In this document: one piece after another, positions 59-63,918 of the stretch | How positions within the stretch are numbered: position 1 is the stretch's first letter | How the letters are laid out: each line of letters starts with the position of its first letter | Made by a program: the position numbers and the translations under genes | Source of the DNA: Fragilaria crotonensis | Taxonomy: Eukaryota > Bacillariophyta > Fragilariophyceae > Fragilariales > Fragilariaceae | Reading direction: 5' to 3' | DNA length: 64,000 nucleotides | Assembly (NCBI GenBank): GCA_022925895.1 | Contig: JAKSYS010000209.1 | Coordinates: forward strand, 1 to 64,000 | Notes under the pieces: generated by a model | The model's input: only the letters and a program-made list of their open reading frames with translations | Database searches by the model: none | Told to the model about the DNA's origin: nothing

Positions 59-77
59 TCTTTCGTGGTATAAAAGG
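59..77 (-). other. 3' UTR stem-loop of LINE-A
   Basis: In coding sense a stem CTTTT/GAAAG with a 7-base loop lies directly after GTCGA and directly before the GCGGCAGCACGTTAA box. The outermost pair (C-A) does not form. The position is the same as in the other four LINE copies, with different stem bases. Confidence 0.6.
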
Positions 78-145
78 TCGACTCGCACGACCAGATATGA
101 TCCGAGTGGGACCACGTCCAGTATCAGTAATTCGCTGTACGGTAT

Positions 146-3100
146 TTACCGCACGGGTTCAAAATAAGACCGTATCGATCTCACCCCTGCTATCGCTTTC
201 TCCTTTGCTCGTTTTGCGCTTTCTTTGAAAATTGGTACATTCACCGTTAGCCAATTCCGAGTTACCCATAGTGGCTTATGCATATGTTCGTGTTCTTCAC
301 GAAGTAATAGTTCGCGGACTCTCGGTTCATATTGGAGACGCTTGCCATATACTTCTCGCAGCTGCGCTGAAATCTCTCGCTTTTCCCGCATGGCACGGTC
401 TGCTGCGTCGCTCCCGTGTAACTCTTCGTTCCTTATCTTCCATAGCTTTTGCCATTCCTTCCATATCAAACAAATCAGTTTAGTTTGCCATCGGTGACCG
501 CTGCGCCTGTCCTGTGTGCCTCGTTGGGACCGCAACCTTGCATAATGGTCGTCTTGAATCCGGCTCCATTCCGCACTGAACCTCCCGTTGATCGTTTGGC
601 GCCAACCGATCGAATTTTGCTGGGTGATCAACGCTCGAACATCAGTGGAAAAGAAAATTGGCGATGCTTGAAACTCGACTTCCTCATTTGTGACCATCCA
701 GTCTCTTATTGTTTCGTTCCATAAATTGCGAAGTAATGGATTTGTTTCTTCTTTAGCGTGGAACTCATCAATGATGTGATGAAAACTGTCCCTCCAATTC
801 TGACGACTTGCGGCCGTACACTTAAGGATATGGTCCCTTTCCCGGCATGTTCCACAACCTGGGCACATTCGTGTTCTGCTTTCTTGCTTGTTTAAGCGTT
901 CAAGAGTGGGTAAGCACTCGTGTACCAGTTTTGTGATGTGTATCCGTTTCTTTATCATCTGTTTCATCGCCTTTCCATGCGCCCGCCAGTTAATCGTAGC
1001 CATAGTTGCTTCGGTGTACCCATACTTGGCTTGAATGTATTCTCGCAATGGTCCTATTGTCGCCCGGTGTCGGATATCTTGCGCATACTTCGAAGTTTTT
1101 GTTCCTCTGGATAAACAAGAAATGCTCCTGTATTCGGTGTCATGAGTGCATATGGATGTGCGCGTCCATATTGATCTTGATACCTCCCGCTAAATCATCA
1201 GCGTCGACGTTTAACTGCGCCCGTAGAGTAAGTCTATTGTACGCCTTCTTCTTGTCCTGGTGGCCTTTAACATAGACCAGTTTGACTCTGGCATATGTGT
1301 AAGAGCATATCGGATTTCAACGAGTAAATCCCATTCAGGTATCAAAGGATCAAGGGGTGAGATTCTGGGAAGTGCAGTCGGGGCAGATGCCGCAGGGCCC
1401 CGTCCCGATCTCGTCCGAATATTGTGTCAAGCATGCTTTGACTATCTGTCCCGATTGTACCGTCCCATGGTTCAATCATGTTTGTATATTCAGACAGCCT
1501 CAACAAAAATCGCAGAATTGACAGCATGCCACTGCATTCTGCTCGGTAGGAGTCCATTACGTATCCTTGATGGTCCCATTCCGTCGCTACTCGTTCGCCT
1601 TGGGATGTGCTAATCATCCATCCGAATGATCCGTCGGTGCCATACTTCTCGGAACCATCGCTCCCGGCTTCAAATCCTTGGTGTAACTCTAAACATGCTG
1701 TATACGGATCCACAAATAAGTCTGTATGCCGCAGGAGATCGACCTCCCATGCATCAAGCTGTTGAACGTAGTCGTCAAACGTAGCCACTGGTAACGGTCG
1801 CGGTTGGATACCCGAGACAGCTTGTTGATTATTTCCCATCGATGCATTCTTCCTGCCTGCTGAATTTCCACGGGTACTGCCATATTCGGAATCTCCCTCT
1901 TCGATATTGAGATTGCTTTCTCTATACATTCGTTGAGTGTCTTCAAGCTTCCGACATTTGACATATTCCCTCCCATTCGTCGCACGTATAATGTCGATCT
2001 GTAGACGTAAGCAGGGTAAGATATCCGACTTTCTGTGGTAGTTAGTAACCAAGGCCCCAAGGGTTGGACCAATGTGCCGTCGGGATAGCTCCATAGCGCA
2101 TTTGCTTTTTTCCATAATTTCCATGATACTGCAGATGGTAACTCTTGATGCACCTTCATCCACCTCGGACGATTGCTGAACAGTGATTCTTGACCCGTGA
2201 GTTTTGCTTGATCTAACTGCGTTCCCTCTGTCGTCGCCAAATCCGATATTGTCAGCGCTCCCAGGTATAATCGACAATAATTGATTCGCCTGATTTCATT
2301 ATCGCTGAATCGACCTGATGCTAATATCCGATCCATAATGAATTCATCGTGACGTCGCTCTAGTGGTGCAACACCCGTGTAGTCCAACTGTATTCCTGCT
2401 TTGATAAAGGCCAAATATCCACGCAGGGAACTTAACCATTTGGATTCCAGATGCGGAGATTATCGTACACATTTTCCATCAACGGTAGTGAGGTCCCAAC
2501 ACAGTATTGTGCCCAAGCTACGGCACATCGGAGTAGCCTTCCTGCTGTTGTCTTGTTGCGCCAATGCCTCAAGAATAATTGAACTTGTCCGATACCTTGT
2601 TGGTCATACAATCTCCTGAAATTAGCGCCGCCGTATTCCAATGGACCGTATATGATAGCTCGTTTTGTGTTCCGATTATATCCACATTTCGCAATGATGA
2701 TTGACATCGCTTTCCGTTGAATATTGTTTAATTGAGCTGCCGTGAAGTGTGAATTTGCGAGGGGATAACCGATACTTGGTAAGTAGCACGCGTAATAGAA
2801 CGTCCATGCTTCTTCTGGGGTCAATGAACATTGATACAAAAATTCGACCGAATTATCGCTCTTGGATTTCAGTTGTCGATATTGTTCGCGCTGTGTGCCC
2901 GCCGGATCTTTGTAGTGACCCAAGGTTTTGTGTGATGCATATGGAGACAAGTACGTGAGTTCTTGATCGATTCCTGATGCGGGATCTTTTACGCGGACTC
3001 CTTTGAACTGAGACGAATCCGTCATTAGGATAGGGGCTCCTGTTACCGTGAATTGCCAAGCCATAACGTGATACGAGCACTTCGATGGTTCTAATGCTCC

Positions 3101-8116: not shown

Positions 8117-8131
8117 CGTCGTTGAAGCGCA

Positions 8132-19879: not shown

Positions 19880-21624
19880 CGCGTCTCTTCCCTCATGGGA
19901 GATGGAGTTATTGCAACACGTGGAAATGTCGGAAGATCCATTTTCAGTTGCCCTGGCATTAGAACATGGTATTCGGGCCGTCAGTGACGGGTCTGACTGG
20001 CATCAAATCCAAGGTGCATTTGGCTGGGTAATGAGCACGGATTTGGGAAACCGGTGCGCCTGCGGAATGGGCCCCGCGCGGAGTGCGTCGCCTCACGCCT
20101 ATAGGTCTGAAAGTTACGGTTTGTTATCGTTGTTGTGTTTTCTTCGTCGTCTCGCGGAATTCACGGGAAAACATGATCAATGGGTCGGAATTATAGCCAC
20201 CGACAGTCAGAGCCTGGTTGACACGGTTCTACAAACCCCAGCACCTCTTGGCGCCCCCGGCGGGGTCTCCGATTTATCTCAGGGGGAGACAGAGCGTCTT
20301 ATCAAAAGTTTCCCTTTAGAGCCCACCATCCCCGAATGGGATATTGTCCGAGGTATTCAAGATCTGCTTCACATTATGCCACACGTCCGACTGCAACATG
20401 TAAAGGGTCACCAAGATCGGGAGCTTCCATACCATCGTCTCTCCCTGTTGGCTCAATTAAATGTGGATGCGGATACGCAGGCGTCGCGTTATCAGCGGGA
20501 CTTCGGGTCCTTCCAACCCAACGTACTTCTCACCGAATGGGCAGGAGTTCATTTAGAGTTCCCAACTGGTACAGTAACATCTCATTTCGAAACGGCTTTG
20601 CGGTTTCAAGCAACGGCACCTGAGCTGAAAGCACACATGATGGCGCGATATTCATGGACACCGCAAACATTGGCGGCGAGTAACTGGGACGCGCATGGCA
20701 AGGCCTTGCACCGCCATCTAACTCGACGAACTCACCTCGTGAAGTTAGTTCATGGGTTGCTTCCGACGAACTCACGGATTCATCGGCATGATCCTGGTAA
20801 ACGCACCTGTCCTAGCTGTCGTCGGGAGTCAGAGACGTGGCAACATATCTTGAGGTGTTCTTCAGCGTCCCGTGTCAAGTGGAGGACAGAGATGCTTTTG
20901 AAGCTCGATCAGCAATGTGACGAATTGGGTCTTGCAGGCTGTACGTGATTGGAGTGGTCATACAACGTCCGAAGACTGCGCGTTTACAATGAGTACGCCG
21001 GATGCACCAATCGGTATTCGACGCCTGGTATATCAACAAAATGCTATCGGATGGGAACACCTGTTCCTGGGTAGGTTCAGCAGCGAATGGAGCTCTCTTC
21101 AAGACGAGTACTATGCTAGGCAAGCTCAAGCCACGGAAACCAAACGACAAACGGGGCAACGGTGGCAGATCGCAATTATTGGTGCTATTTGGAAGCATTA
21201 GTTTTTCCTCTGGGACATGAGGAACAAAGAGATACATGGCGCGGATTCCCGCTCACGAGCACTGGCAGAGCGACGCGTCGTCGATCGCACGCTGATAGAT
21301 ATTTACGACGTCCGCAATCAATTGGAGCCCAGCGTGCAACACCTTCTACTTCAGGACATTACCGATCATTTTACGAAAACGGTGACTTACAATAAAAATT
21401 GGATCGCAGTTTACGGTCCGTTAGTTAAGAGGAGCATCAAGCGCGCAAAAGCCAAGGCAATCCAAGGTGTCAAGTCGATCCGCCATTATTTCGGAGTACG
21501 GTGATCAGTTTCTAGAGAGTCATGCTGGCCGCTACTGGTATACGGTAGCGTCTAGTCGTGTGGGTCGAGTGTTTGTAGTCTGAACACAGCGGCAGCACGT
21601 TAATTAGGTTTGTGTCTTTTTTTT
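19880..21624 (+). pseudogene. LINE-D 3' part: RNase H, zinc knuckle, C-terminus, tail
   Basis: LINE-D resumes at ASLPSWEMELLQHV. RNase H blocks: VSDGSDW (Asp), RSESYGLLSLL (Glu), IATDSQSLVD (Asp) and QLNVDADTQAS (Asp), with VKGHQDRE between. A zinc knuckle CPSCRRESETWQHILRC lies near 20810. A frame break near 20940 moves the frame to 20917-21201; a TAG at 21199-21201 then interrupts it and the same frame reads on to 21504 with the shared end AIQGVKSIRHYF. The 3' UTR has the stem-loop, GCGGCAGCACGTTAA and eight T. The right flank CCGAAGTG is not found at the 5' end, so no target duplication is seen. Confidence 0.87.
21569..21587 (+). other. 3' UTR stem-loop of LINE-D
   Basis: GTGTTT, a 7-base loop, then GAACAC, directly after GTCGA and before AGCGGCAGCACGTTAA. 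Six pairs, one of them T-G. Confidence 0.65.
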
Positions 21625-26218: not shown

Positions 26219-26252
26219 AAAAAACTGAACTCTAGATTAACGTACTGCCACG

Positions 26253-26271
26253 GTGTTCATACCAGGAACAC
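26253..26271 (-). other. 3' UTR stem-loop of LINE-C
   Basis: GTGTTC and GAACAC around a 7-base loop: six perfect Watson-Crick pairs, at the same place as in the other LINE copies. Confidence 0.7.
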
Positions 26272-26373
26272 TCGACCCACAAGGCGAAACCTTGCCTTTC
26301 ACTTCAGACAAGCCCCCGCTTCCATGCACTTTCATGCATCCTTTACCTATGGTACCAGTGATATCAAAAACTG

Positions 26374-28990: not shown

Positions 28991-28993
28991 TAA
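28976..28993. repeat. LINE-B target duplication, left copy
   Basis: GAGCTGTTTCTTTTTTAA, identical to 44589-44606. The last two A could belong to the LINE-B tail, so the true length is 16-18 bases. It lies in LINE-C ORF2, in the stretch encoding KKKQL. Confidence 0.9.
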
Positions 28994-35230: not shown

Positions 35231-35481
35231 CGAAATAAATTCCGAGTCTTGTCCGCATTTCTCTAAGTCCGTTTAGTCGGATGAGTCGGCCGCCTAGTGG
35301 TTTCGTCGTACCGCTGTCTCGCGTACTGTCGCGTCGATTCGTGTTGCTGTGTGTGGTTTTCTGGATTCTCCTTCATGTTCACGAGGCTAGTGGAACTAAA
35401 TAGATGGCATCGGAATCTGGTCCTAATAGTTTTGTCTCTCTCTCCTGGTTCGTCTCGCGGGGTCGGTCCCGTGATATTCAT

Positions 35482-36760: not shown

Positions 36761-38981
36761 GTCGTCGAGCGCGAAGTCTCGCGATAAAATGTCCGCCACC
36801 TTGTTCTCTCGCCCGGGAACCATTGAGTGTAGTGGTCGATCTCGTGCGTCAGACAGAAATCAGCGAAACTCCTCGCGATGGTGAGGTGAAGCGGACAGTT
36901 GTCGTCGGCTGGACTTTGCCAGCCACCCTGCGGCCGAGGTGCTATCCCCTTGGCTTAGCAGGACGTCCGAGACTGGCGACCACTTTTTTCCTTCGCGGAA
37001 TTCGACTACCATTCCCACGAAGGCTGCTAGAAACTCCAACGTATTAAGTGTCGCTCGTCCCGCTAGATCTTCGGGCAGTTGGTATCGCCAAGCAATCCCG
37101 CTTTGGAGACCATATCCTCCTATCCCTTGCGGGCAAGCGTCCACCCGAACGATTCGCGTCGGCCACCTGCAGACCAATCTGTTGATGGAGATCCCTTGCG
37201 CCGCTCTTCGCAGGAAGCTCCTCCAAAGGCTCAGGTCATCGCGTTGGGGATTCGTCAGTCTCGTCTTTCCACTTCGTTTCGATCTCTCGCATGCCTTGTA
37301 GAGTCGCCCCATGAAATGCCTGGAGTACGGGACGACGTATGCGGCGTGGCTGAGTCGTCCGAGGGTCTTCTCCAGATCGTTCGTCGTTACGTGCGCATGC
37401 CTGTTCGCTAGGATCTTGTCGATCACTTTCGTCCATGCGTGGTATTTGTCCTCAGGCAGAGCGACCGTGAAGCGGCGTGTGTCTACCAGCCATCCCAAGA
37501 TCATCTTCCGCTCAGATGGTTTCGCCTCGGCCAGGAACTTCGGGATGGCAAGGATGTCGTCTCTGGGAAAGGATTCGTTTCCCTCTGCGTTGTGGGGTCT
37601 TCCCACTATGTGCAATGCAAGGGAATCGCTGCCGAGCTCTTTTCTGCGTCTCTTGGGTTGAAAGCCCCAAAAATGTCGTCCAGGTAACAGTCGAATCTGG
37701 GTAGATCGTCGTCGTTTGCGATCGGGTAGTTCACAGCGAAGAAATCGGCTTCTCCGAATTCGCTCGACCCGTCGATCATTCCATCGTCGTTATCTACGGC
37801 TTCGTCAGAATCAAGCAAGTGTTGATGCGGCGAGTGGAATACCTTCGGGTCCCAGTCTGATCTCCTGACGAGGTCATTCGCAAGGTCCGTGATTACTTCG
37901 GACACGTCGCTCCACTGGGACGGGTTTGGTGCTCCTCCGAAAGTCATCCTGAGTGCCACGAGGAGCAGGTCGTCAATGCTAGTGCAAGACTTCAGGGCGG
38001 TTCGTGCCTTTAAGTGTATTCGTCTGTAGGCGGATTTGCAGTCCACCTTTGTGAGGAGGATGGGTTCTTTCGGCCACAATTGTCTGAGGTACGAGATGTG
38101 GTACATCAGTCGACTGAAAGCCCTGCCAAATCGTGCGGTCGTCAGTTGTGACGTGTCCACTCTGTCGTTTACGCTTCGTCCTGGGATCCCGCTGGGGTTG
38201 AATGACTGGTCGTGTGAGCCTTAGCTTCTCGATGGTCTGTCCCTTCTCGTCGATCGATGTCTGTGCCACCATGCCCAAAGGCGCCACCTCGCAGCCTTCT
38301 AATTCCAGAGCGGCCTCCCCTCGGTAGGGGCAGTTGCCAGCCCCTTTCCACTTCTTCTTTTAGCATTGATATCAACTTCGCTTCGTGGCCTCGGGCCGAT
38401 TTGTGATTGCCACGGGCGAGGTTGTCGCGGACGTCGGCGAGGCGGTCGGCGTCGGAAATCTCGCGGAGGGGAAAATCCGCGCCGTCTGAAATGCGCTCTT
38501 GGAAGCGCGACCAGAGCGGGTGTGCGGAGAGGAGCGGCGCCAGGAGCGCGGCGGATCGAAATTCGGATCCGGGTGTCACCGCGCTGAACGGTTGGGCGTC
38601 CACGGCTGCCCCGAGGTCCAGCGCGTAGCGCCGGAGGACTGCCAGGTTGTGAGCGGCCGCCTCGTGAGTCCATTCGAAGCGGAATTCGGTCGGGTGCGTC
38701 GTCGGCTGGGGGGCGTCGAGGATGCTGGCCAGAGCATCGGCGAGTCGAGGTTCGGGAAGGCGCGGGAAAGGCGAGTCGACATTCGGAAGCGGTATCGTCG
38801 GAAGTGGAACCAGGGCGAGTGACTTACCGTTGGTCCTAGGACCCCCAGAGGGGGGTGTCCAGGAGTCGTGACGTGAGACGAACGTCCTCGTTCGCAGTGC
38901 CGGGGCGGTCAGCTCCGCGGCGGACGGTCGTGGGCGGTCGGGCGGGGCGAGGCGGTGTCGCGGCCGCGAGCGATGTCTCAT
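36700..38981 (-). pseudogene. YR1-b reverse transcriptase and RNase H
   Basis: Pieces 38981-38169, 38287-37979, 38160-37606 and 37615-36860. RT: upstream RGNHKSARGHEAKLISMLKE, DTSQLTTARFGRAFSRLMYH, motif A TKVDCKSAYRRIHL, motif B MTFGGAPNPSQWSDV, catalytic FDCYLDDIFGAF. RNase H: RVDACPQGIGGYGL, TLEFLAAFVGMVVEF, GDSTSAAGWLAKS, then ENKVADILSRDFALDD in the next frame (from 36823). Frameshifts lie near 38200, 37610 and 36890. YLDD is a less common form of the RT active site. Confidence 0.87.
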
Positions 38982-39136
38982 GCGTGGCGATCGTTGCCGT
39001 CGGGCGTGGTTGTGCAGCCGGGATTGCTATGGACGGACCCGCTATGGGTCCATCGGTCGGCTGGCGCGAGTCGCGGAAAGGCGGTGCGTCCCCTGTCGTT
39101 CGTCGATTGTGAAATTCGCGATGGGCTGCCTCGTGA

Positions 39137-41424
39137 TCAAAGGACCACCGGGAAGGCTGAGCGACGAAAAAGTTGTAGTGTAAGCAGATGCAGAGGTCCT
39201 AATTTCGTTTTCTTGCTGGGCGGCGTCGAGTCGGACGAGGGTCGGCGCATGCGCGCCCTGCATTGTTCGATCCATGCCCTAACGCTCGCGGTTTGTTCGG
39301 TCGTAAGGGCGACGTGCGAAGCGCTCAGGAAGCAGCTCCGGACACACTTGCCGTTCAAGTGCCAGCGGCAGCACATGTTCGGGAGCGGCCCGCTCCGCAC
39401 GTGATCGAGGAAGACCTGCCAGACGTCGTTGGCGTCCTTCGTGAACAGGTCCTGCTGCGGGTTCGTGACAGCGTCTGCTGGTTGTCCCTTTCGTCCAGAT
39501 CGTGCGCCGCCTCCTCCTGATGCGCTGGGGGCTTCCGCCTTCGCGGCAGCGCTGCCCCCGGACCCCATCCTGTCTTTCAAGAAGTCGCAGGCGGGGAAGA
39601 CGAAGGCTCCGTCCTCCAGTTGCTGACGCGTCGAACGGAAGTCTAGCAGATTCAGGTTGATATCGTCCTCGTGTTCCACTCCTGCGCACAACACCAAGTA
39701 TTGTTGCGTTTCTCGATGAACCAACCGAGGCGACAGGCGGCCGAGTTGTCTTCGTGAGCTAGCTGTCGTAACGTCGCTAAGGTCGATCCGACTGCTCGCG
39801 TCAGGAAACGACACCACTCGTCCAACATATGCGTCAACGGGGACCGCGGGCCGAAGAGGAGCTCGGCCACCCCGCCATGTTCTCGAGTAGTCGCGCGAGC
39901 TCGTGAAAATCACGCGGGATAGTGAAATTGAGCTTCGTCATGCTCTTGATGTCTTTGTCCGAGAATCCAGTTGTCGTGTCTGTCGTCTTAAGTTGCATTT
40001 GAACAAGGGTGCTTGCGTGGTCGAGAGCATCCCTGCCCGTCGCGTTCGATCGTGCGAGCGTCTGGGGCCCGCAGCAAAAAAGGCTGAAGGCTCCTGGTCT
40101 GTCCGAAGCGTCGGCTAGGAAGGATGCGGTCCGAATGGCTGCGCAGAAACCCATTGGGATGAATGCATCCCTCCCTTTCGTGTTGCGCAAGAAATGGTGT
40201 ATGTGGTTTTGGACGTACGCCACGTTGCTGAGCGCTAGGATGTCTGCGAAGGTCTGGACGGGGCGAGTTGGGGTCCTCCCAAGGCGTCCTTCTCCGAAAC
40301 GAACAGGATCATCCGCTTTGTCGACGGGGGAACGAGTCGAATCCTGTCTTCGGGATTTGAGGAGATGACGCGACTGCGCTAGCGACCTGTCTTTCGAGGA
40401 GGCTCGACAAGTTTCTGATGGCGTCGTTCTCTCGTCCTGGCGTTTCTGACTGATCGTCCGATTGGATGAGGCTTTTAGCCTTCACGGCCAGGTACTTCAT
40501 GTGTAGGACTTTCGCCCAGTCGTCCGCTCGCCTAGAGTAAGCTGACGAAGCCGCCACTCCCACTTTGTTGGACCGTGAGTGGTTCTGGTGCTCGCTGCAA
40601 CGCAGAGAACCCATCGAGGTACGTAGGACGCTGCTTCGGCCAACCTCGACGCCCGGTCGGGGTCCGGGTCCTCACTCGCCCTCTGTTTGATGGTCCTGAC
40701 TATCATCAGGGCCAATTCCTCAGGGTCGGTGACGTATGATTCCATGATGGCTGCTGCGATGAACGCCGGAACTGGTACTGTCGGTTTCATGGTGAAACCG
40801 ACGACCGTGACGTCTTCTGTGTCGTCCGCGTCCGCGTCGTTCGTCTTGTCTTGGTCGTTAGTCTCGTTAGTATGTTTGCTCGACTTGGATCTGCCTCTTG
40901 GGGCACTGCCTTCTTGGGGCGTCCTCTCGTCGCTGCCACAGGAGGTGGCTCCCGCGCCGGCGCCGATGCCTGTCCGGCGCTCGCTGACGCCTGACACCGA
41001 AGATCTCGTCGTCACCAATTCTTCAATCGCTCTTCGTACGTCGGACGTAGAATTCCACGTGAGCATTTTGGACCAATCGTAAGGCGTTCCAACGTGGCTT
41101 CTGACGATCTGTTTCGTGTCGACCGCCATGGCGGCTGCGAATCCACCGCCGCCGAGAAGTGCCCATAGGGCGTTCGTTCCGTCGTTTAGTCCGTCGTCGG
41201 CGTCGTGGTGAAAGTGGTGGAACAGACGGATCGTCCCGTGCGTGTTTACCATCAGGTGTGCGATGTCCGGCGAACACAGGTGTACAAACCCTGTAGACTG
41301 TATTAATCGAATTCGATTTCGTGTGTAATCTGTTGAGCTTCGGGACCACTTCCCACTGGTCAAGGGCACGGAAGACGTCTTCCCACGTAGACGTCATCGT
41401 CATAGGGGACGACATGTCGGCCAT
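39137..41424 (-). pseudogene. YR1-b gag-like ORF with CCCH zinc finger (broken)
   Basis: Start MADMSSPMTMTSTWEDVF at 41424, frame break near 41290, then 41369-40497 with STGFVHLCSPD, GLNDGTNALWALLGG and VVGFTMKPTVPVPAFIAAAI. Further pieces 40614-40309, 40223-39834 and 39913-39137, the last with LVLCAGVEHEDDIN, VFPACDFLKDRMG and the finger CRWHLNGKCVRSCFLSASH. Same block order as copy a, so this is one ancestral protein of about 700 residues. Likely nucleocapsid role, from position and zinc finger. Confidence 0.76.
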
Positions 41425-41488
41425 CCTATCTGCGTTCGTCGTTCGAGTCGTCGGTCGGTTGGTGGTTTGAGGGAAGAGGCCAGATTAA

Positions 41489-41639
41489 ATTAACTAGAGT
41501 AGTGTCTTTGTTGATTCGAGTTCGTCCGGATTGTGAGCAATTCGCATCTTGTGTTGTGTCCGGGTGTTCGTCTGTCTGTGTCTCGTGTTCGTCTGTCTGA
41601 CGGCGACTGCTCTCCCTTTCCCGAACTTCGGACATGCCA
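41489..41639 (-). repeat. YR1 right terminal region, copy b
   Basis: Same as 35081-35230, with CCC instead of C before GAACTTCGGACATGCCA. It ends at 41639, where LINE-B sequence resumes. Confidence 0.8.
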
Positions 41640-41964
41640 ATCGGCTTGCACTTCTTTGAGCACTCGACAAAACATATCATACTGACCTCCCATTCGATCA
41701 AGTGTAAATCCATTCACATTTGCACAATAAACCCGAAAAATATCCTCTCCTTTGTCCTCCAAAGCCTCCCCATTGTACATTTGATTTCATATTAGAGTGT
41801 GTTAGGAAAATTCCTGATTGACATTGATTCGCTATGGCCACGTTCCGCAGCGAAGAGTCTTTTCCATGCCGCTTGAGCTGTTGCAAGACAAGCAGACTCC
41901 TGTGGGGCATTCTGGTTGGGTGCCAGAACACCCTGTTCACGTTTACCTCGATGGGCGCACTCAT
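41640..41964 (-). pseudogene. LINE-B ORF2 N-terminus
   Basis: ATG at 41964 overlaps the ancestral ORF1 stop as ATGA. The frame reads MSAPIEVNVNRVF and, after a shift, FRVYCANVNGFTLDRMGGQYD and LKEVQAD, the start of the APE-type endonuclease (the N-N residues of AxNxNG are the usual first active-site block). YR1 interrupts after the Asp of KEVQAD; continuation is at 34693. Confidence 0.82.
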
Positions 41965-44510
41965 TTTGACTACATAGGATTGGTCAGCCCACGAGATTCC
42001 GATCGGGCCAACCGGGTTTGATCCTCTTGATTAGATATATCGCCTCTAGTCTCATCTCTGTGAGGTTCGGCGCTCGGGATCGACGTTTGTCGCGTATCTT
42101 GGTGTTGGGATGCAATATCTTGTAGCTCATCGCTACTAATGACGTCATCAGCTAGAACTCCTGGCGTTGATTCGTAATAAGAATGATGAATGGATGATTG
42201 CTCTATCGTCGGCAATTTGGCTCGAGTCAAACGACAACTCTTTGCTGCAATCGTGCAACGGGTGACTGGGATGGTCCGATACATCGGGCTCGGGGTCTTG
42301 CACGTAGGGATTTTCTGGCGTCCAGACTGTAGAACGATGAGTTGACCGAGATCTGAACTGCTGTGTCGCTTGTTCTTCTGACATGTCTGATTCGGATTCT
42401 GCAGTTTCGGGAGGTAAAGAAGCATGCGGAGGATACATTACTGGAGACGCCTGTTGTTTTGCAGGTGATTCACGAATAAATTGCCGTTTACGGCCGCTCG
42501 TCAATCGCCTACCACGAACGTCGTGCACTTCCAGGTCATCTTCCGTGGTATCGGCATGTTCACTGGCTCTTTGTACTGATTAATTCCAACATTAGGAAAA
42601 GATGTCGATTGTTGCATCATTTGCATCACCATCTCGGTTAACATTTGCATGTGCCGATTTTGAGCTGCCATAAACGTCCGAAAATCTGAGTCTGAATTTT
42701 GAGCAATGAATGATGTTGGCTGTTGACTCGGTCGCTGCTGGAGTATCGCTTCACTTGCTTGCCGATTCGCGATCCATCTCTTGCTGCTGAGTTGCAACTT
42801 GACGTTCAAATTCCTGTCTTTGGTTCTGCCAATTGTCGTTCCATCTCCATACGCTGTTCTGCCACCTGACTTTCAAAAGACGTTGTTGATCAGCCGCTTA
42901 CGTTCCAACTCTCGCTGTTTATTTTCTGCCTGACGTTCAAGCTCTAAGGCTTGTTGTTGCAGTTTTAAATCCATTTCGCGGCGTTGATGCTCGGCTTGAC
43001 GTTCAAGTTCACGTTGATAAGACTCTTTCGACACTTCGAATTGATGCAACTTCATTTTGAGTTCCTCTACTGCTCTTGACGCCAAGTCAGACATGTACTC
43101 TTCATCGTATGTGGTTTGCGATGTGGAGGGTGCTTCAGAAACCGACGCTTGACGAGAGGTTCCCTTGACTCGTTGTGCCCATGTCTTCGAACGGGAGCTC
43201 GATCGATCACTTGGTTCTTTGGCTGTCAAGTCAATAATAGACGGTGCATTATCCGATGCTGAATCCTCCGACATTGTTGCTGCGTACGACATTGCAGTGT
43301 TGATACTCGATGACAAATAAGTACCTTCGCCACTAGAATATCCATCAGAAAACAACGGAGCAACTTCGGTGGGGTCACGAAATCGCTCATTGATAAGTTT
43401 TGCATCAGCAGATACATGGGTTTCGAACCAATCTTGCAGTTGAGATATAACACTGTTTCGAGCCTGATGAAAGGCTGCCTTATTCACCAACACTTTGTGA
43501 CGTCCATCGTGTACAACATTTGAACCTGCAATAACATCTCTAATTCCAGGAACCGCTTTGATATGATCGGACATGTAATACATAGCATCTATACTCACGT
43601 TGTTCATGATGAAAACGTGATTGTCGTGCATGTGCTGTGTTTGTTGTCTGATAAACCGAACATAGGCCTCTGGATGCTTAGATCTCAATTGAAATGGAAC
43701 GAAGTCATGTGTATCGCTATATGCGCGTTTCAACGTCTTCAGCAATTCCATCGAGTCCAGTTTTGCGGTTTCGATTGCATATGCTTTCGTCTTGATGGTC
43801 TTCCCGCAATGTTTGATCTGTGGAGTGGTGAAAGCCAATTGAAACTTTGGAATTTTTGTCCGGGCCGGCAATTTACTCTGTATGTCTTGTCGCAATTTTT
43901 CGGTTGCGGTTGCGACGTCATAAAACTGTGGGTCTAAGCCCATGACAAATCCAAGTTGAGTGGTATCCCAGATATCCTCGGTCCATCGGTGCTCAGTAAG
44001 GAAGCAGTTGTTGTCTCGGAGAAGACGATACACTTTAGGTATGTTTTTGATTTCGGAAAGGGTTACAGACGTCCGAATTCTGTGAATAATCAACGCGGAA
44101 CCTTTCGGAGATGCGATATACTTCTGGTGTTCACCTTGGACAGTATCTCTGACTCTAGATCTTGAATTGGAGTGATGAATTTGAAACTGTTTGGAGTGCT
44201 GCCCTATGGTCCACCTCATAGTGTCTACAATAGGCATGGTTTGCCCATTGTTATTCATGATCTGAATATCTGCACCACAATATTCTTGGACTGCTTGAAT
44301 CCAATGAAGATGGATCTTGGACGGCGACACTGGTTCTCCATTGTTGTTCAGAAGAAATCGGAATTTCACTGTTTTCTCGACAAGGTGTTGGACATTTGTC
44401 CTTCCACCACGTCCACCGGGTGGCGTAACATCTGAGGCATCGTCTGAGATTCCTCTCACAACCGATGGTACACTCCCATCTCTGGGAGAGCCGACGGGGA
44501 GGTCGGTCAT
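41961..44510 (-). pseudogene. LINE-B ORF1 (frameshifted)
   Basis: ATG 44510 (MTDLPVGSPRDGS). Frame to 42873 is 545 codons: conserved core with TVKFRFLLNNNGEP, HRIRTSVTLSEIKNIPKVY, WDTTQLGFVMGLDPQFYD, FVPFQLRSKHPEAYVRFI, then a coiled coil from about residue 470 (ELKMKLHQFEVSKESYQREL and Q/E/R-rich repeats). Two to three frame breaks follow; pieces 42809-42501, 42528-42148 and 42425-41970 give NRHMQMLTEMVMQMMQQ, RKRQF and HPLHDCSKELSFDSSQIADD. A TAG at 41970-41972 comes just before the ancestral TGA at 41961-41963; LINE-E has CAG there. No zinc finger is seen. Confidence 0.82.
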
Positions 44511-44588
44511 GGTCAGTTTCGTTCAGTACAAAACCTACCTAAGATTCACGTAGAAATTAGTAAGGGTCTTACAATTTTTCCTAGAGCT

Positions 44589-44606
44589 GAGCTGTTTCTT
44601 TTTTAA
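44589..44606. repeat. LINE-B target duplication, right copy
   Basis: GAGCTGTTTCTTTTTTAA, partner of 28976-28993. Confidence 0.9.
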
Positions 44607-49356: not shown

Positions 49357-49967
49357 TCACTCGCGCCAATGTAGTGGGGCTCCCGGGGATGCAGTTCCGG
49401 CAGGCGCGTTGGGCGATCCTGTAGCGCGTCTGCTAAGTCGCGGAAGTCAGCTGCCATGTCACGTACTCGCTTCGTGATGCGCACGCGGTTACCACTCGAG
49501 GTGTGCAGAGAATGCTGCAAGATGGAGAAAAGCCCTTTGGAGCCCGGCAGAGCTGGCGACATGGAGCGCAACTCCCCCAGCAACTTGTGCCAGAAGGTGA
49601 CGGATGCACGTTTGCGGGGTGGGTCAAGGTGTTGGAGAAGGTCGTACAGACGCTCGAGTCTATGCTGCGGCAGCTGCATGGTGTTGGCACGGGTGTCGAA
49701 ATCCCATCCAAGAATCCGTTTTCGTGTACTCCAGCAGGCATCCCCTTTTAGCATCTTCTTAACGGATGCTGGCTCTTTGCAATGGAGGGGATCTGCTGGT
49801 TCCAAGGGGCGAAACACGTCGTCAATAGCTTGGAGTGTGTTCCGAAGGACGTTGCGTTTCTGGGGCTCCGTTTGGGCCATGAGCAAGAAATCGTCGACAT
49901 AGACGTCGACACGTGCTACCGGGGCCGCCCGTGCTGTGGCCGGTGCCGACAGCTTGCGGGCTGCCAT
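48672..49967 (-). other. Chimeric open frame: YR2 RT end fused to LINE-C ORF1
   Basis: A single frame of 431 codons. Residues 1 to about 200 come from the YR2 RT (VYVDDFLLMAQ, HKLLGELRSM, ending HYIGAS) and the rest from LINE-C ORF1 with its coiled coil. The joint is the LINE-C insertion site at 49356/49357. This is a by-product of insertion that happens to stay in frame. There is no evidence it is expressed. Confidence 0.8.
49357..49373. repeat. LINE-C target duplication, right copy
   Basis: TCACTCGCGCCAATGTA, partner of 26202-26218, in the YR2 codons for YIGAS. Confidence 0.92.
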
Positions 49968-55244: not shown

Positions 55245-55369
55245 AAAAAAGGAACGAATAAATGCATTAATGAGCAAGGGGATGTGTGGAACAAGACAAG
55301 GCGCAGGAGACGCGTTGGTGTTGTTTCGTGTTTAAGTTTGATGGATCGGAAATGAACGATGGTATGATT

Positions 55370-55386
55370 AGTGTTGGCATGAATGG
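55370..55386. repeat. LINE-E target duplication, left copy
   Basis: AGTGTTGGCATGAATGG, identical to 63955-63971. It is 126 bases after the LRR stop codon. Confidence 0.93.
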
Positions 55387-55418
55387 AGAATTTTCACTCT
55401 GGAAAAACTGTAAGCCCC

Positions 55419-55456
55419 TTACTAATTTCTACGTGAATCTTAGGTAGGTTTTGTAC
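55419..55456 (+). promoter_or_regulatory. Conserved 5' UTR box, LINE-E
   Basis: Block with TTTCTACGTGAATCTTAG then GTAGGTTTTGTAC, nearly identical to LINE-B and recognisable in LINE-A, 16 bases before the ORF1 ATG at 55472. Confidence 0.5.
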
Positions 55457-55471
55457 GTGACGAAACTGACC

Positions 55472-58032
55472 ATGACCGACCTCCCCGGCGGCTCTCCCAG
55501 AGATGGGAGTGTCCCATCGGTGGTGAGAGGAAACCTAGATGATGCCTCCGACGTTACGCCACCAGGTGGTAGTGGTGCAAGGACGAACGGCCAACAACTT
55601 GTCGAGAAAACAGTGAAATTCCGATTTTTAGTGAACCAAAGCGGTGAACCTGTGTTACCGTCTAAGCTTCACTTGCATTGGATCCAAGCTGTACAAGAAT
55701 ACTATGGAGACGCGGTTCAGATAATGAACAACAATGGACAAACCATGCCCATAGTCGACACAATGCGATGGACTACGGCGCAGCATGTCAAACAGTTTAC
55801 AATCCATCACTCAAGCTCCAGATCAAGAGTAGGTGGTAAGACTCCAGGAGAACAAGAGAAATATTTTTTGTCGTCAAAATTCCTCGTTGGTCATTCATCG
55901 AATCAGAACTTCGGTCACCATTTCTGAGATCAAAAATATACCGAAAGTGTATCGTCTCCTTCGCAACAATAATTGTTTCCTTACCGAGCATCAATGGACG
56001 GAAGATATCTGGAACACCACCCAACTTGGATTTGTCATGGGACTAGACCCACAGTTCTATGATGTTACAACTGCGACAGAAAAATTGCGCCAAGAAACTG
56101 CAGCAGAAATTGCCTACTCGGTCCAAGATTCCGAAGTTCCAACTAGCCTTCACAACTCCACAGACCAAACACCGCGGGAAGACTATTAGAACAAAGGCAT
56201 ATGCAATTGAAACAGCGAAGCATGATTCAATGGAATTGTTAAAACAACATTTGAAACGGGCGTACAGCGATACGCATGAATTTGTTTCCTTTCAATTGAG
56301 ATCCAAGCATCCAGATGCGTACGTCAGGTTCATCAGGCAGCAAACAAAACATTTGGCTGACAATCACGTGTTCATCATGAATAATGTTAGCATCGATGCG
56401 ATGTATTATCTGTCCGACCATATTAAAGCGGTTCGTGGAATTAAAGATGTTATCGCCGGACCAAGAGTCCTCTATGATGGCCGTCACAAAGTGTTGGTGA
56501 ATAAGGATGATTTTCACCAGGCTCAAAACAGTGTCATATCCCAGCTGCATGAGTGGTTCGATCTTCATGTCTCAGCTGACGCAAAAATTATCAATGCAAG
56601 GTTTCTTGATCCACCAGAGGTAGCACCTTTATTTTCTGACGGATATTCAAGGGGAGAAGGTACTTATCTGTCCTCAAGTGTCAACACAGCAATGTCTTAT
56701 GCAACGATGTCGGATTGTGACACCGATACATCGCCCATCATAGATATGTCAGCCAAAGAACCTAGTGAACATTCTAGCAGTCGGTCCAGGACTTGGGCAC
56801 AACGAGTTAAAGGCAACCCCCATCAAACATCGGCTTCAGTAACGCCTTCCACATCACAAGTCACTTATGATGATGAATACTTGTCTGATCTGGCATCTAG
56901 CCGTGCGGAAGTTGAAGAACTCAAAATGAAATTGCATCAATTCGAAGTGTCGAAAGAGTCTTATCAACGGGATCTTGAACGACAAGCAGAACATCAACGT
57001 TGTGAAATGGATTTAAAGCTGCAACAACAAGCTTTGAAGCTCGAGTGCCAGGCAGAACTTAAGCAACGAGAGCTTGAACATAAAGCAGCAGATCAACAGC
57101 GTATGTTAGAAACTCATGTGGCAGAACAACGCACGGAGATGGAAAGGCAATTGGCAGTGCAACGGCAAGAATTTGAGCGTCAAGTAGCAACTCAGCAGCA
57201 GGAGATGGATCTTCGAATCACACGGCAAGTCGAGGCCGCTCTCCAGTTGAGGAATGTGCAACAACCCGCACAAGTTACAACTCCGGAACCAGATCCTGAT
57301 CTTCGGTCATTTATGACAGCGCAGAATCGGCACATTCAGATGTTGACTGAAATGGTTATGCAAATTATGCAACAACCTCAACATTCACATAGCATTGTTG
57401 GTACCTATTCACGACAAGGAGTAAATAACCATCCAGACGCTGCAGATGACGATCCTGAAGTGTCAGAAGTACCTGAGAAGCGAATGATTAGTGGACGGAA
57501 ACGGCAATTCACTCGAGCATCACCCAACAAGCATCCCGCTACTACTGAGACTTATCCACCGTATGCTTCATTACCCCGGGAGACTGCAGATTCTGAATCC
57601 GATATGTCCACAGGACACGCCACACAACCGTTGTCTCGGTCGAATCAGCGCTCTACGGTTTGGACTCCTGAAGATCCATATGGTAACGACCCACCGAGCC
57701 CAATATATCCCGACCACCCCAATCACCCGTTGCACGAATGCAGCAAAGAATTGTCCTTTGACTCCAGTCAAATTGCGGATGACCGAGAGCAATCATCTCT
57801 TCACCATTCTTATTATGAATCCACGCCAGGGATTTAAGCAGAAGATGTCATCAGTAGCGACCAACTACAAGACATTACATCACAACATCAAGAAAGGCGA
57901 CGAACGTCGATCCAGAGCGCCGAGTCTCACGCAGAGTTGAGACCAGAGGCGATACATCCTACTTCAGAGGATCAAGCTTGGTTGACCCGACCAGAATCAC
58001 AAGGGACAACCAACCCAACGCAGTCACAATGA
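55472..58032 (+). pseudogene. LINE-E ORF1 (two frameshifts, one stop)
   Basis: ATG 55472 (MTDLPGGSPRDGS), matching LINE-B. Frame to about 55880, then the 55833-56100 frame (VIHRIRTSVTISEIKNIPKVY, TQLGFVMGLDPQFYD), then 56059-57837. The coiled coil at about 56900-57240 is longer than in LINE-B: QAEHQRCEMDLKLQQQ and further 10-20 residue Q/E/R repeats. Later blocks: RHIQMLTEMVMQIMQQ, HPLHECSKELSFDSSQIADD. A TAA at 57836-57838 stands where LINE-B has Leu; the frame reads on (EDVISSDQLQDITSQHQ) to the TGA at 58030-58032, which overlaps the ORF2 ATG. Confidence 0.83.
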
Positions 58033-61000
58033 GTGCAAGCGTTGAAGATGACAACGCACGTGTTCTGGCTACAACTTATCAGAACGCCACAGGGGAGAGT
58101 GCATGCCTTCAAACCGCTCAGGAGGCGTGGAGGAAGATACTAACGGCGACTGGAAAACGAGAATCACAAGTAAATCGGGAAATATTTTTAACAAATTTGA
58201 ACATGAAATCAAACGTACCCTGGGGAGACTCACTGGAGGAAAAAAGAGATGATACCTTTCGAGTCTATTGTGCAAATGTAAACGGCTTTACACTTGATCG
58301 TATGGGAGGTCAGTATGATACCTTTTGTCGAATGCTCAAGGAAGTGCAAGCTGATGTGTCACGCGGACAGGAACATAATTTGGACATCACAAAGGCGCAC
58401 GTCCGAAGTATATTGTATCACACGACACAACAGCATTGGCAGCGTTCTCGTCTCAATTTTAGTACAACACCAATGGAGTTTCAGCGAATGTACAAACCAG
58501 GAGGCACCTTTGTATTGACAGTAGGGGATACCAGTAGTAGAGTTCGTGACCGATTTCGAGACAAATGGGGTCGCTGGACGAGTCAGTCATTTTTAGGAAG
58601 TGCAGGACGGCGGGTTATCACCATAGTATCTGCATACCAGGTTGTCACCGATTCACCGGTTCCGGGTCTCATTACTGCGGCCTCTCAACAACACAGCCTC
58701 CTTCTTCAGACGCAGGACGCAGTTACAAATTTCGGAGGGACCTTCAAAAATATCTACAAGAGTGTAGACAGGATGGTCATGAACTTCTATTGGTGGGCGA
58801 TTTTAACGAGGAGATTGGACGAGAAGTAGACGGTATGCTCTCACTCATACAAGCATTGGGTATGGTAGATATCATGAGGCATCAACATCCAGTCACATTA
58901 CCTGCAACATACGCAAGAGGATCGCGGTGCTTGGATTACGCTCTCGCTACGCCCAGACTAGCGGACGCAGTTCAAAAATCCGGATATGAAGCATTCAACG
59001 CAAGGTATACAACGGACCACAGGCCATACTTTGTGGATTTCTCAGTCGAGCTCTTATTTGGAATCACGATAAAGCCTTTCTCTACACTCGAACCGCGTAT
59101 CCTCCGTTCTAATAATCGTCAGCAGGTGACAGCTTATATACGGCGGAAGTATAAAATTTTGGATGATCATAATGTTTTCCGACGGATTGACCGGTTGACA
59201 TGGTTAGGTGATCGACATGCCTACGCTGAAAGACTGGATAAAGCTGTTGTCGAGGCAAGTCTTGCGGCAGAAAAATCAATTCAACGTGTCGGTGTTTCAC
59301 CGTGGTCCGTAGCCCTACATAAAGCCAGACAAAAAGTGCAGATATTAACAACATGTTTGGCGATGGCAAAAACGCGATTGCAGAATGAAGGCACCATTCG
59401 GGAGGCATGGACTAAAGCAGGTTTTCCAAATGATCCACCTACGACAGAAAGGCAATGCACTAGCGAACTAAAGGAAGCACGTAAGCAGGTGAGATCCATC
59501 GTCTCAGAACAGTACGGACGACGGGACAGCGAAAGACTCAGCCGCATTAGCCATCTTGAGGCATCTGCTTCCAGCAGAGACAAAGGACGGGCAAAATACT
59601 ACGACAGATCCATAAAGCCGAAGCATTGAATCGAATGTTTAATAAGCTCCGTTGCATGCAGGCTTGTACGGAGAGAAGTGGAGTATCGAGAATTGAAATT
59701 CCAGTACATCCAGATGAGGATCCCAAGACGTGCTCCGAGTGGAGAGAGGTTGACGTTCCTACGGAAGTGATTGAGCATTTGCGACAGCGGAATCGCCGAC
59801 ACTTTGGCCAGGCAGACGGTACACCCTTTACAGTATAGCCCCTTTCTGAGCAACTAGGCTATTGTGGCGACGGGCCAGAAGCCAGAAATATTCTCCACGG
59901 CCGATATCAGCATCGAGCAGGGATGGATAGAGATGTGCAACGGGTGATACAACACTTGCAGATTTCTGACGAGCTCGCACAATTGCGAGTTTACCCCACC
60001 ATTAGCGAGGCAGATTACGTTGGAAAGTTAAAGGCGTGGTGGGGAGTCTACAGTGACGTCCCCTTCAAGCAAAAATGCATTTAGGACACTATAAGGCAAT
60101 GATTGCAAAACATTCCTATTCCGATATACCAGACGAGGAAAGTGAGGAGCACAAGAAACATCGTGAAGCCCTAGACTTTATGCAAAGCGAGATTCTACGA
60201 GTTCATCTGCTTTTGATTAACTACGCCTTGGAATGTGGGTACTCCTATCAGAGATGGCGTCACGTGGCCAACTCGGTCCTTTTCAAAGAACCTGGTAACA
60301 TCAAAATTCACAGGACTCGGATTATACACATTTATGAAGCGGATTACAATTTGATGCTGAGTTTGAAATGGAGATCCGCCTTACTTCAGGCCGAGGCTTA
60401 CCAGCAACTTAACAATGGACAATACGGATCGCGGCCAAAACGGACTGCAATCGACCCAGTTTTTCTTGAGGAACTACAACTGGAAATGTCTCGGATAACT
60501 AGGAAAACAATGATACTTACAAATTATGATGCGACGGCATGTTACGACAGAATTATCCCTAACTTGGCAATGTTGGCCAGCCGGAGATTTGGAGTTCCTT
60601 TTCGAAGTCACCATGTCAAATGCAAGGATGTTGGAGCACACTGACTATCGAATACGAACGGAGTTGGGGCTTGCAACAGACCCCGGCGATCTGGTGCTTC
60701 CTTTCAAGCATCCTATACGATTGCTATGATGAGGTAGCGTTCACCGCAGATTATCTTAGCCCGGATCGAGTAAGGAGAACCGAATTGGGAATGATAGGTT
60801 TCGTCGATGACTCGAACGGGCAAACAAACTCCTTTGAGGAACCCGAGACAATACATACTCCAACACAAATCCTTAAGAAGATGAAATCAAACGCGACGGT
60901 ATGGACCAAGTTGTTAGCGGTTTCGGGAGGCTCACTCGAATTATCAAAATGCTCCTATCACGTTCTAACCTGGAAGTTCACTGCGTCGGGATCGCCGGTG

Positions 61001-63826
61001 TTATATAATGATCGGGATGAGTGTGGCGGCGTTACGGTACTTGACGCTACGGCAGGAGTTGAACACGAACTTCAATATCTGTCTACGTATGAAGCACACA
61101 AGACCCTCGGACATTATAAAGAGCCTGCGGGAAATCAACGAGTGCAGTTCAAGAAGCTACAGGAAAGGAGCCGGGAGCTCACATCATTCCTATGGAATAC
61201 ACATCTCACTCGGGAAGAAGCATGGACCTATCATTTCGCTACGTATTTACCACGTATGAGCTACCCCTTGGCCACCTCCCACTTCACCGAACGACAGCTA
61301 ACAACAATTCAACGTAAAGCTATGTCGATTATGTTTGCAAAATGTGGATTCATTCGCAATACTAAACGAGCAATCTTGTATGGTCCTCTCGAATATGGCG
61401 GATCAAACTTTCGACGGCTGTATGACCAACAAGGTATTGGACAGATTCGTCTGTTTTTGCGTCACTGGAGATCTAACAGCCCAGCGGGTGATATGTTCTT
61501 GGTGTCAATACGCGACGGGAATATCGGTTTCCATCCTGGAAGACGTAAACACTCGAATACCCCACCTCGAGTCTAAGTGGATTTCCTCGTTGAGACATTA
61601 TTTGGCAAGCATACGTGCTATTATCCAAATCGACTCCAATCTGGTTCCACCACTAGAACGTGAAAATCATGCATTTATCATGGATCGAGTGGTCCATTCA
61701 GGCCAATTTTAAGCAGCGGAAATTTGAAGGATCAATTATTGTCGTTTATTCCTTCAAGTGGTTACCATATCCGACCTGGTGACAGTAGACGGTGTATTTC
61801 TTGATCAGTCTAAACTGGAGGGTAACCCATCCCTATGTAGTAGTCGCACCAGATGGATCCATATTCATCAGGATAAACCGTCAATGCCTACGAGCTAATT
61901 GAACCCCTCGCGAAATTTTTGCGCGATCACCGAGTGAGACGCATGGAGCAATTTTCTTATGGTTACAATAATAAAGTGGCTATTCGAACGGCCGGAGGTT
62001 TTGTAGAATGTACCAAGACAACAACCGGTGCATTTAGAGAGACAGGGAAGATCTTAATGTACCATCATCTTCCGAGGCACGCAGTTCCTGTCACAGTCCG
62101 AGTAACGGACAATGCTCATGAATGGGAACTTTTAAGTATCGCATTCTTGACAACAAAACCAGTGAGCTTAATCCCGAGAACGTTCGAACAATTCGTAGCG
62201 CAACTGGAACCGTGGGAAGAACATCTCCTTCGGTACACGAGGTTGTCGGTGGATCCTCGCTCGATTGTTCTTGAGTTGCAAGAAAGTTTTGTCGCGGGTA
62301 GTGACGGATCTTCTAAGGAACATTGTACTCAAGGAGCATTCGGGTGGATGATCAGTTCAACGGCGGAAGAACGAATGGCAAGCGGTAAAGGACCTTCTCG
62401 GGGAGCTACGATAGATTCATATCGGGCCGAGTGTAGCGGAATGCTGGCGATTCTTCGGTTTCTTATCCGATTGGCTGAATATTCCGACATGTTCGGCGAT
62501 TGGATAGGCACCATTGGAACTGACAGTCAAAGTTTACTAGATTGACTCTTTGGAAAACCGATAGAAGGGCAGGCAACGCCACCAGAGTACAATGCAACAC
62601 ATTTACAACACCTGGACGTTCTGACACCCGAATGGGACCTTCTTATCGAGATTCAAGCATCCTTACGTCAGTTACCGGCTATTCAACTTCAATATGTCAA
62701 AGGACACCAAGACGACCATACGTTATACCAACAATTGCCTCTCATGTCTCAACTTAATGTCGATGCTGACGCGTTGGCCACAGAATATCAGGACGAGTTT
62801 GGGATGTCACGTCCTCAAGTCATAATGTCGCCTAATGCTGGGGCGCACCTCATTATAAATGAGGGCACTGTCACTGCCAACTTTGATGCGGTCGTTCGTT
62901 ATGCGGCAACTGCTCCGGGGACTTCGTGAGTACATCAAAGACAAGAATCACTGGAGTGAAACAATCATGTGCCACATACACTGGGACGCCCATGCCAAGG
63001 CCATGAAAAGCTCCATTCATCGTCGCATCCATCTCTCCAAGCTCGTACACGACTGTCTACCAACAAATAGTATGAGGAACCGCGTGGACTCAGGTAAACG
63101 AACGTGCCCATTATGTTCAAGCGACAGCGAAACGCGAGATCATGTTATTCGATGTCCTGCGGAGGCTCGGTCACATTGGCGACCTGCATTGATTTCACGA
63201 TTAAACTCCCTTCACAATCAATCGCAGACAAGTCCTTTACTCAGACATTTACTCCACGAGGCATTGCTACAATGGTTTCAGACGGAAGGTGATACAGTAG
63301 TATCGCCGATATTTTATCCAGTGGAGCTCCGGGAAGTCATTCATCAGCAGAATGATATCGGGTGGCGTCAGATATTTAATGGGAGATTTAGTAAAGAATG
63401 GAGTCTCGTGCAGGATGCATATTACAGACGAGTGTTACCACACCGTGGTGGTACAAATGTTCGACGAACTGGAGCTCGGTGGCAGCGTCAGCTTGCTTAT
63501 CTTGGCGATATGGGATTGGTGGTTCGATCTCTGGAAGTCTCGCAATGAGGACGTTCACGGAGCAGATCAGCGCACGCAGGCTGAAGCCCGGCGCCGAGAT
63601 GTGACTCGCAGATTAAGGGGAAATATATGATCAACGATCCCAACTGGAGCCACAAGTTCAACAATTGTTACTCCCTACCCTTCAGGACCATATTCAGAGA
63701 CCCACTTGGGTGAATCACAACTGGCTTGCAGTCAACGCCAACATTTTCCGAGATAGCATGCGTCGGGCCAGATCACGAGCAATACAAGGGGTACGATCAA
63801 CACGCACATACTTCAATCCCGCGTGA
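58029..63826 (+). pseudogene. LINE-E ORF2: endonuclease, RT lacking motif B, RNase H
   Basis: ATG 58029 (MSASVEDDN). Endonuclease: YCANVNGFTLDRMGGQYD, RGQEHNLD, DKWGRWTSQSF; after a small loss near 58735 LLVGDFNEEIG and TDHRPYFVDF. RT pieces 58565-59629, 59626-59838 (TAG at 59836), 60075-60644 and 60620-61576: motif A NYDATACYDRI and GFVDDSNGQTN are kept, but the motif B stretch YGTGQGSGNS is gone, joined LGLQQTPAIWCFL near 60680. RNase H: GSDGSSKE, RAECSGML, IGTDSQSLLD then TGA at 62543, VKGHQDDH, QLNVDADALA. Zinc knuckle CPLCSSDSETRDHVIRC near 63110. The end at 63826 reads GVRSTRTYFNPA. About ten lesions. Confidence 0.9.
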
Positions 63827-63898
63827 CTGGAATGTTTTAGTGACAAATTTCTTATTGGACGGTACCCTCGCAGAGTACTGTTCAATCGTGCGAGTCGA

Positions 63899-63918
63899 GT
63901 CTTCTAGTCAGCGAGGAC
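63899..63918 (+). other. 3' UTR stem-loop of LINE-E
   Basis: GTCTTC, an 8-base loop, GAGGAC; six pairs with one T-G. The third pair is C-G where LINE-B has T-A and LINE-C and LINE-D have G-C. Confidence 0.7.

Follow-up and report, generated by a model that had tools for sequence, protein, structure and literature searches.

R2 elements carry a structured 3' UTR that is recognized by the reverse transcriptase (RT), and they combine a restriction-like endonuclease with a fixed target. The requirement of R2 for its 3' UTR is among the results related in the available part of PMC4176376. According to the same source, ZfL2-1, ZfL2-2 and UnaL2 possess a stem-loop near the 3' end, which is followed by short repeats; the ZfL2 stem-loop is needed for retrotransposition, and in ORF2 the region that binds it, which reads both stem and loop, lies between the endonuclease and RT domains (PMC4176376). 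In maize and sorghum, an L1 lineage and ZmSINE2/3 exhibit a variable stem with compensatory changes, a conserved flank (CGAG) and a tail common to the non-autonomous elements (Ohshima 2013, PMC3747384). The accessible text of that study also states that a poly(A) end is found in nearly all L1-clade LINEs of flowering plants, that p-SINE and Au-like plant SINEs terminate in poly(T) or in a short run of T, and that partner LINEs recognizing poly(U) had been suggested for the poly(T) SINEs and were unidentified as of 2013 (PMC3747384). Among stramenopiles, Thalassiosira pseudonana harbors an RTE-like non-LTR family, for which a 3' hairpin is not mentioned in the portion of the report at hand (PMC2806351), and oomycetes harbor L1 and Utopia non-LTR elements, described in an article whose available text contains neither "stem-loop" nor "3 UTR" (PMC5348765). 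The means by which a LINE protein selects its own RNA are understood only in part; the recognition experiments covered by PMC4176376 use zebrafish, eel and insect elements.

Five LINE copies and their composite 3' module

The window, meaning the whole 64,000-nt stretch of Fragilaria crotonensis DNA that was analyzed, contains five LINE copies (A to E), in all of which the preliminary description had placed a stem-loop just ahead of a conserved box and the tail. The stem-loop, here called P4, indeed precedes the box in 5/5 copies, the box of copy C being a variant, GTGGCAGTACGTTAA, rather than the exact GCGGCAGCACGTTAA. By direct reading, the arms and coordinates were accurate for B (GTTTTC/GAGAAC, 29030-29049, minus strand), C (GTGTTC/GAACAC, 26253-26271, minus strand), D (GTGTTT/GAACAC, 21569-21587, plus strand) and E (GTCTTC/GAGGAC, 63899-63918, plus strand). 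In copy A the stem CTTTT/GAAAG is present, but the pairing occupies 60-76, and the span of 59-77 first given takes in an unpaired base at either end. The tail itself is poly(T) and not poly(A).

P4 turned out to be only one part of a larger module of about 86 nt, located 3' of the ORF2 stop and 5' of the poly(T) tail and the target-site duplications. Upstream of P4 lies a second hairpin of 33–36 nt, absent from the preliminary description, made of a six-pair helix (P1), an internal loop and another six-pair helix (P2). A short helix, P3, in which the linker CGTRY pairs with GYACG of the box, probably encloses P4. Coding constraint was rejected as a cause of the conservation, the module sitting after the ORF2 stop. 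Likewise rejected was an intrinsic terminator or Pol III end signal, with the T run 27–30 nt away from P4 in the window.

Copy E (plus strand) presents all parts of the module, at 63850-63934 (83.6 bits with the covariance model R1). Model match, direct reading and covariation all place its upstream hairpin at 63854-63886, with P1 at 63854-63859/63881-63886 and P2 at 63862-63867/63873-63878. The probable P3 spans 63887-63930 and joins the linker CGTGC (63887-63891) to GCACG of the box (63926-63930), a pairing that is suggestive and not significant over all helices. P4 (63899-63918), the box GCGGCAGCACGTTAA (63920-63934) and a tail of 9 T (63946-63954) follow, all by direct reading. The 3' target-site duplication, TTAGTGTTGGCATGAATGG (63953-63971), overlaps the last two T, and its 5' counterpart lies at 55368-55386, so that element E covers 55387-63954 between 19-bp repeats. 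Copy D, also on the plus strand, has its module at 21520-21603 (79.4 bits; upstream hairpin 21524-21556, P4 21569-21587, box 21589-21603) and 8 T at 21617-21624; a target-site duplication was sought for it and none was found.

The other three copies are on the minus strand. The module of copy B lies at 29014-29098 (85 bits; upstream hairpin 29062-29094, P4 29030-29049, box 29014-29028), its tail of 9 T at 28992-29000 and its duplication at 28976-28993 (3' copy) and 44589-44606 (5' copy). The diverged copy C has its module at 26237-26323 (54.7 bits; upstream hairpin 26284-26319, P4 26253-26271, box variant 26237-26251), 7 T at 26218-26224 and duplications at 26202-26218 (3') and 49357-49373 (5'). 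Copy A is found at 43-126 (74.4 bits; upstream hairpin 90-122, P4 60-76, box 43-57), and its tail of 28 T (2-29) ends one base from the contig end. LINE B (28976-44606 with repeats) sits inside LINE C (26202-49373) and interrupts it, so the stem occurs in the younger insertion and equally in the older copy that it interrupts. The absence of the stem from intact, recent insertions had been named as grounds for abandoning the proposal; the stem is present in B, C and E, each of which has target-site duplications. LINE B spans 15.6 kb compared with 8.6 kb for E, hence a further insertion inside B is likely.

Searched with R1 at E up to 1, the window yielded exactly these five places and no other, at 74–85 bits for A, B, D and E and 54.7 for C. 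The training rows of the model include D, E, a copy with the tail of B and a near copy of A; C was not included, and 18/18 of its modelled pairs are standard even though the sequence of its upstream hairpin is quite different. Genome-wide (62.1 Mb), there are 94 exact matches to the box and 257 when one mismatch is allowed, compared with 0 and 6 for the reversed pattern, so that the box is commoner than chance. Its GCACG part is rarely changed (20/163 one-mismatch copies): the A never, the second C once, the first C nine times (always to T), the first G seven times and the last G three times. UnaL2 and R2 RNA families are present in Rfam; none of its 4227 families matched any of ten loci holding the module (cmscan, E up to 1). 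At one locus (L069) two tails meet tail to tail with their boxes 35 nt apart, the forward tail being cut inside P4.

Coding region, T tail and insertion sites

The element is a non-LTR retrotransposon (LINE) with an APE-type endonuclease and a reverse transcriptase in one open reading frame. Its full-length relatives measure about 1,900–1,990 residues, in which the endonuclease is accompanied by a weakly recognized RT. PF03372 scored above the cut-off in 4/4 relatives scanned (P0003, P0014, P0091 and P0108); PF00078 did so only in P0091 (33.6 v 29.6), was below it in P0003 and P0014 and was absent in P0108. The frames at L064 and L066 also match PF00078 below the cut-off, P0114 is listed with PF00078, and some relatives carry zf-RVT. 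Searched against PDB sequences at E up to 1, a profile of the LINE proteins (A3) retrieved no RT chain; a single open reading frame used as query found nothing, and none of 47 pattern stretches in viral contigs was a relative. In prokaryote genomes, a relative 22–23% identical to the LINE protein was found on two contigs (L174 and L175) of one Nitrospirae MAG, which are probably eukaryotic contamination of the bin.

Across the genome, sense LINE coding sequence ends no more than 400 nt upstream of the box in 38/52 tails with long flanks. The LINE match itself ends 49–125 nt before the box in 36/52, the nearest few reaching the first bases of the module; at L064, for example, the module begins at 4932, after a frame that ends at 4907. 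A T tail of at least five T is present in 117/124 distinct copies (median 9, range 5–29) and lies 11–14 nt 3' of the box in 111 of these 117.

Insertion has left target-site duplications as well as 5'-truncated copies. Duplications of 11–24 nt, 24 being the longest length tested, were detected at 16/48 copies compared with 2 in the decoy; none was found at the remaining 32, many of which are cut by short flanks. The survey took in 48/51 tails, excluding L053 and L069- (no T run of five) and copy E (short of sequence after the tail), and copy A was not entered. At least one T precedes the 5' duplication copy in 16/16 cases, and the three preceding bases are ACT in 8/16, although L012 and L057, both counted among the 16, seem to represent a single insertion. 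This T/ACT at the junction suggests a short endonuclease target motif. The insertion at L063 consists of little beyond the module, with 82 nt to the end of the box and a 17-nt duplication. At four loci (L016, L027, L055 and L083) the similarity extends past the T tail into the first part of the sequence beyond it, so that these loci look like duplicated segments or part of a larger repeat.

Covariation of the paired arms

Covariation was assessed by an APC-corrected G-test and a helix score, in custom scripts patterned after R-scape. In the null, the changes of each column were dealt anew over a FastTree tree, with the tree and the number of changes per column kept. All sequences come from one genome, in which 93 of the 94 exact-box places were taken in (C714 was left out). 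The smallest test set covers 59 of 63 distinct tails, without L002, L052, L072 and L069+, which are joined to unrelated or cut 5' sequence. Alignment A1 consists of 35 rows chosen from 55 (the 59 minus L008, L104, L092 and L079). The 81-row set holds the distinct tails among 121, without L002, L015, L052, L069+, L072, L120, L131 and L133, and the 99-row set also omits L158, L159, L161, L162 and L168-L173.

In A1, 90.3% of the pair cells of a 23-pair structure are standard, compared with only 30–44% once partners are slid by 1–3 columns, and 16 pairs have changes on both sides. The minimum-energy fold keeps at least three pairs of P1 in 33/35 rows, of P2 in 29/35, of P3 in 32/35 and of P4 in 30/35; the mean folding z is -2.74, with 12/35 rows not below -2. 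Significant covariation, anticipated from the five window copies alone, held in all three larger alignments. Two column pairs reached E<0.05 with 59 rows (one in P4 and one in P1), three with 81 rows, where helix pairs take the first four places among 3486 column pairs, and two with 99 rows. All of them are helix pairs, at least one being in P4 in every row set. The outermost P4 pair, one of the three in the 81-row set, is open in 14/35 rows of A1 and standard in only 68% of the 81 rows, so its signal lies partly between unpaired states.

Whole helices were ranked as well. Among 2701 possible six-pair helices in the 81 rows, P4 came first, P1 second and P2 eighth, and those otherwise ahead of P2 were shifted registers of the same hairpins. 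The copies are related and only two to three pairs pass the strictest single-pair test, as would suit chance inverted repeats in a few subfamilies with seeming covariation from shared ancestry; however, P4, P1 and P2 each exceeded the best helix anywhere in 400/400 nulls (81 rows), and these nulls keep both the tree and the column change numbers, which makes chance the least credible of the explanations weighed here. For P4 no better null arose in any helix run with 81 or 99 rows. With 99 rows, the best four distinct helices were P4, P1, P2 and P3 in three of four alignment settings, in which 0 or 1 of 150 nulls did better than P1 and P2. At a gap cost of 2.0 the upstream hairpin was shifted and nulls did better in 143/400 (P1) and 387/400 (P2) cases, and at 3.0 it was misaligned and both helices were lost likewise.

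Another route to matching arms is hairpin-templated copying error, that is template switching during DNA or cDNA synthesis, in place of selection. Such events can alter both arms at once, and 45 of the 275 changed branches in P1, P2 and P4 pairs of the 81-row tree do change both sides (12, 14 and 19, respectively). Templated copying would not, however, leave the many G-U cells that are present: with the outermost P4 pair left out, G-U cells on the given strand number 346 compared with 446 after shuffling, and A-C cells 61 compared with 185. The depletion of A-C and the way P3 joins stretches flanking P4, G-U states included, also speak against copying errors, which we regard as very improbable. 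An A-C cell would read G-U on the opposite strand, and selection has therefore more probably acted on the sense RNA than on DNA or on antisense RNA. With phylogeny controlled and A-C cells much more depleted than G-U cells, the case for selection on RNA structure made in the preliminary description is supported.

In the case of P3, the 3' strand is fixed in most copies by their retrieval through the exact box, and the constancy of the box in A1 follows from this way of sampling. The covariation of P3 rests on one pair, the fourth linker base with the second base of GYACG. In the 99 rows this pair is G-C in 79, A-U in 14 and G-U in 6, never A-C and never broken, with both sides changed on three branches. 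Its score had an expectation of 1.95 among 3486 column pairs (about 6 in 10,000). At its own place P3 was surpassed in 39/400 nulls with 81 rows and in 16/400 with 99 rows; over all helices it was not significant, a better helix arising in 21–31 of 150 nulls with 99 rows and in 78 and 119 of 150 with 81 rows. When box variants were checked, 2/9 GTACG copies (L113 and L119) carried the complementary A in their linker; many more GTACG copies with a linker A were found among relatives of L113. With L119 as a DNA query, six additional places were retrieved (L168-L173), none with a box-like tail.

RT-less carriers, function and comparison with known systems

The module is also carried by an RT-less family of about 0.8–1.25 kb, which has its own 5' end, a repeat-rich frame and the LINE tail in two versions, NA1 (five copies: L003, L011, L020, L029 and L060) and NA2 (three copies: L028, L081 and L092). 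NA1 copies have their 5' end in common, measure 988–1242 nt from the target-site repeat to the end of the box and contain an open frame of 264–361 codons rich in a short repeat. No sense match to the LINE proteins over 1,700 residues was found in NA1 at E<=1e-4, nor any match to the ORF1-like frame of copy E. NA1 copies end in the same module and T tail, and have duplications of 11–18 nt in 4/5 cases, that of L029 being shorter and imperfect. The 5' end of NA1 has 12 genome matches, four of them at 77–78%, and three of these four are followed 0.6–0.8 kb downstream by the tails L028, L081 and L092. Between the bodies of L060 and L028, the only copy in which the NA2 body was seen, 175/232 ungapped bases are equal (first four blocks).

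Over the first 72 nt of the tail, NA1 and NA2 agree at only 59–64%; NA1 agrees at 74–79% with the LINE L059, and NA2 at 73–81% with B/E-type LINEs. One body with two LINE-like tails is what an exchange of partner would leave, and from these sequence comparisons we infer that the two versions arose by partner exchange between LINE lineages; parallel divergence appears less likely.

Two traits of a "stringent-type" element are therefore seen, a conserved 3' stem-loop with compensatory changes and a tail common to non-autonomous partners (NA1 and NA2). We consider it quite probable that the module is a stringent-type 3' recognition RNA, read by the ORF2 protein of the LINE to start reverse transcription. 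The ~86 nt that precede the spacer and tail of the LINE RNA would fold into a composite element, in which the P1/P2 hairpin is directly joined to the linker and a probable P3 then encloses P4, bringing the conserved strands GRGTCGA and GCGGCA together. The ORF2 protein would bind this module, and target-primed reverse transcription would begin downstream, on the short U tail, which would pair with the 3'-terminal A of the nicked target strand. RT-less elements would move by means of the borrowed module. Helix sequences may drift because only their pairing matters, and the linker and box may stay constant because the protein reads them; these conserved letters are the ones the protein presumably recognizes.

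Alternatively, the module might be conserved for a role in forming or protecting the 3' end of the RNA (termination of transcription, processing, stability or export), with the RT needing only the U tail. In the copies examined it does immediately precede a U-rich end, and the RNA of a non-autonomous element would likewise depend on a signal of this kind. On the other hand, a general host signal would not be expected to come in two forms, each tracking a different LINE lineage, and the 27–30 nt between P4 and the T run in the window are too far for a hairpin-plus-U terminator; we therefore hold a 3'-end role to be unlikely. For recognition by the RT, the RT-less family provides an independent argument, as its two versions of the module match two LINE lineages.

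More tentatively, and at somewhat less than even confidence, we propose a type of LINE whose RT reads a composite RNA (P1/P2, P3 enclosing P4, linker and box) and copies from poly(U) rather than poly(A). Such a LINE would be of the poly(U)-recognizing kind proposed for poly(T)-tailed plant SINEs, and its module would act as a swappable docking tag that RT-less elements exchange between LINE lineages. The diatom system offers a well-supported RNA fold, 99 distinct natural variants, autonomous LINEs with poly(T) tails and an apparent natural exchange of tails. With these fold variants and the apparent exchange, recognition by helix, by loop or by conserved letters becomes directly testable.

LINEs with a required 3' stem-loop and LINE–SINE pairs with a common tail are already known. 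A survey of the open-access literature (titles and abstract starts) retrieved no 3' hairpin of diatom LINEs and no poly(T)-tailed LINE among the matches listed, and among these matches the diatom case, the composite fold and the poly(T) end of autonomous LINEs are new. R2 is alike in its structured 3' UTR, whereas the diatom LINE differs in having an APE-type endonuclease. As far as their available texts go, the RTE-like family of T. pseudonana (PMC2806351) and the oomycete L1 and Utopia elements (PMC5348765) resemble the diatom LINE only as non-LTR retrotransposons in stramenopiles. ZfL2 and UnaL2 tails similarly have a stem-loop near the 3' end with short repeats after it, but in the accessible account most of the specificity of that stem-loop resides in the loop (PMC4176376), whereas the diatom LINE has two hairpins, a probable enclosing helix and conserved letters in linker and box. 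The maize and sorghum L1 lineage is similar in its compensatory stem changes, conserved flank and shared tail; in contrast to the composite diatom module, it is portrayed in the part of the study available as having one hairpin with a conserved loop (UCU), within the plant L1 clade (PMC3747384). Finally, the p-SINE and Au-like elements described there are SINEs with a T end (PMC3747384), whereas in the diatom the autonomous LINEs themselves end in poly(T). This likeness concerns the tail alone and implies no kinship, yet it shows what the LINE partner of a poly(T)-tailed plant SINE can look like.
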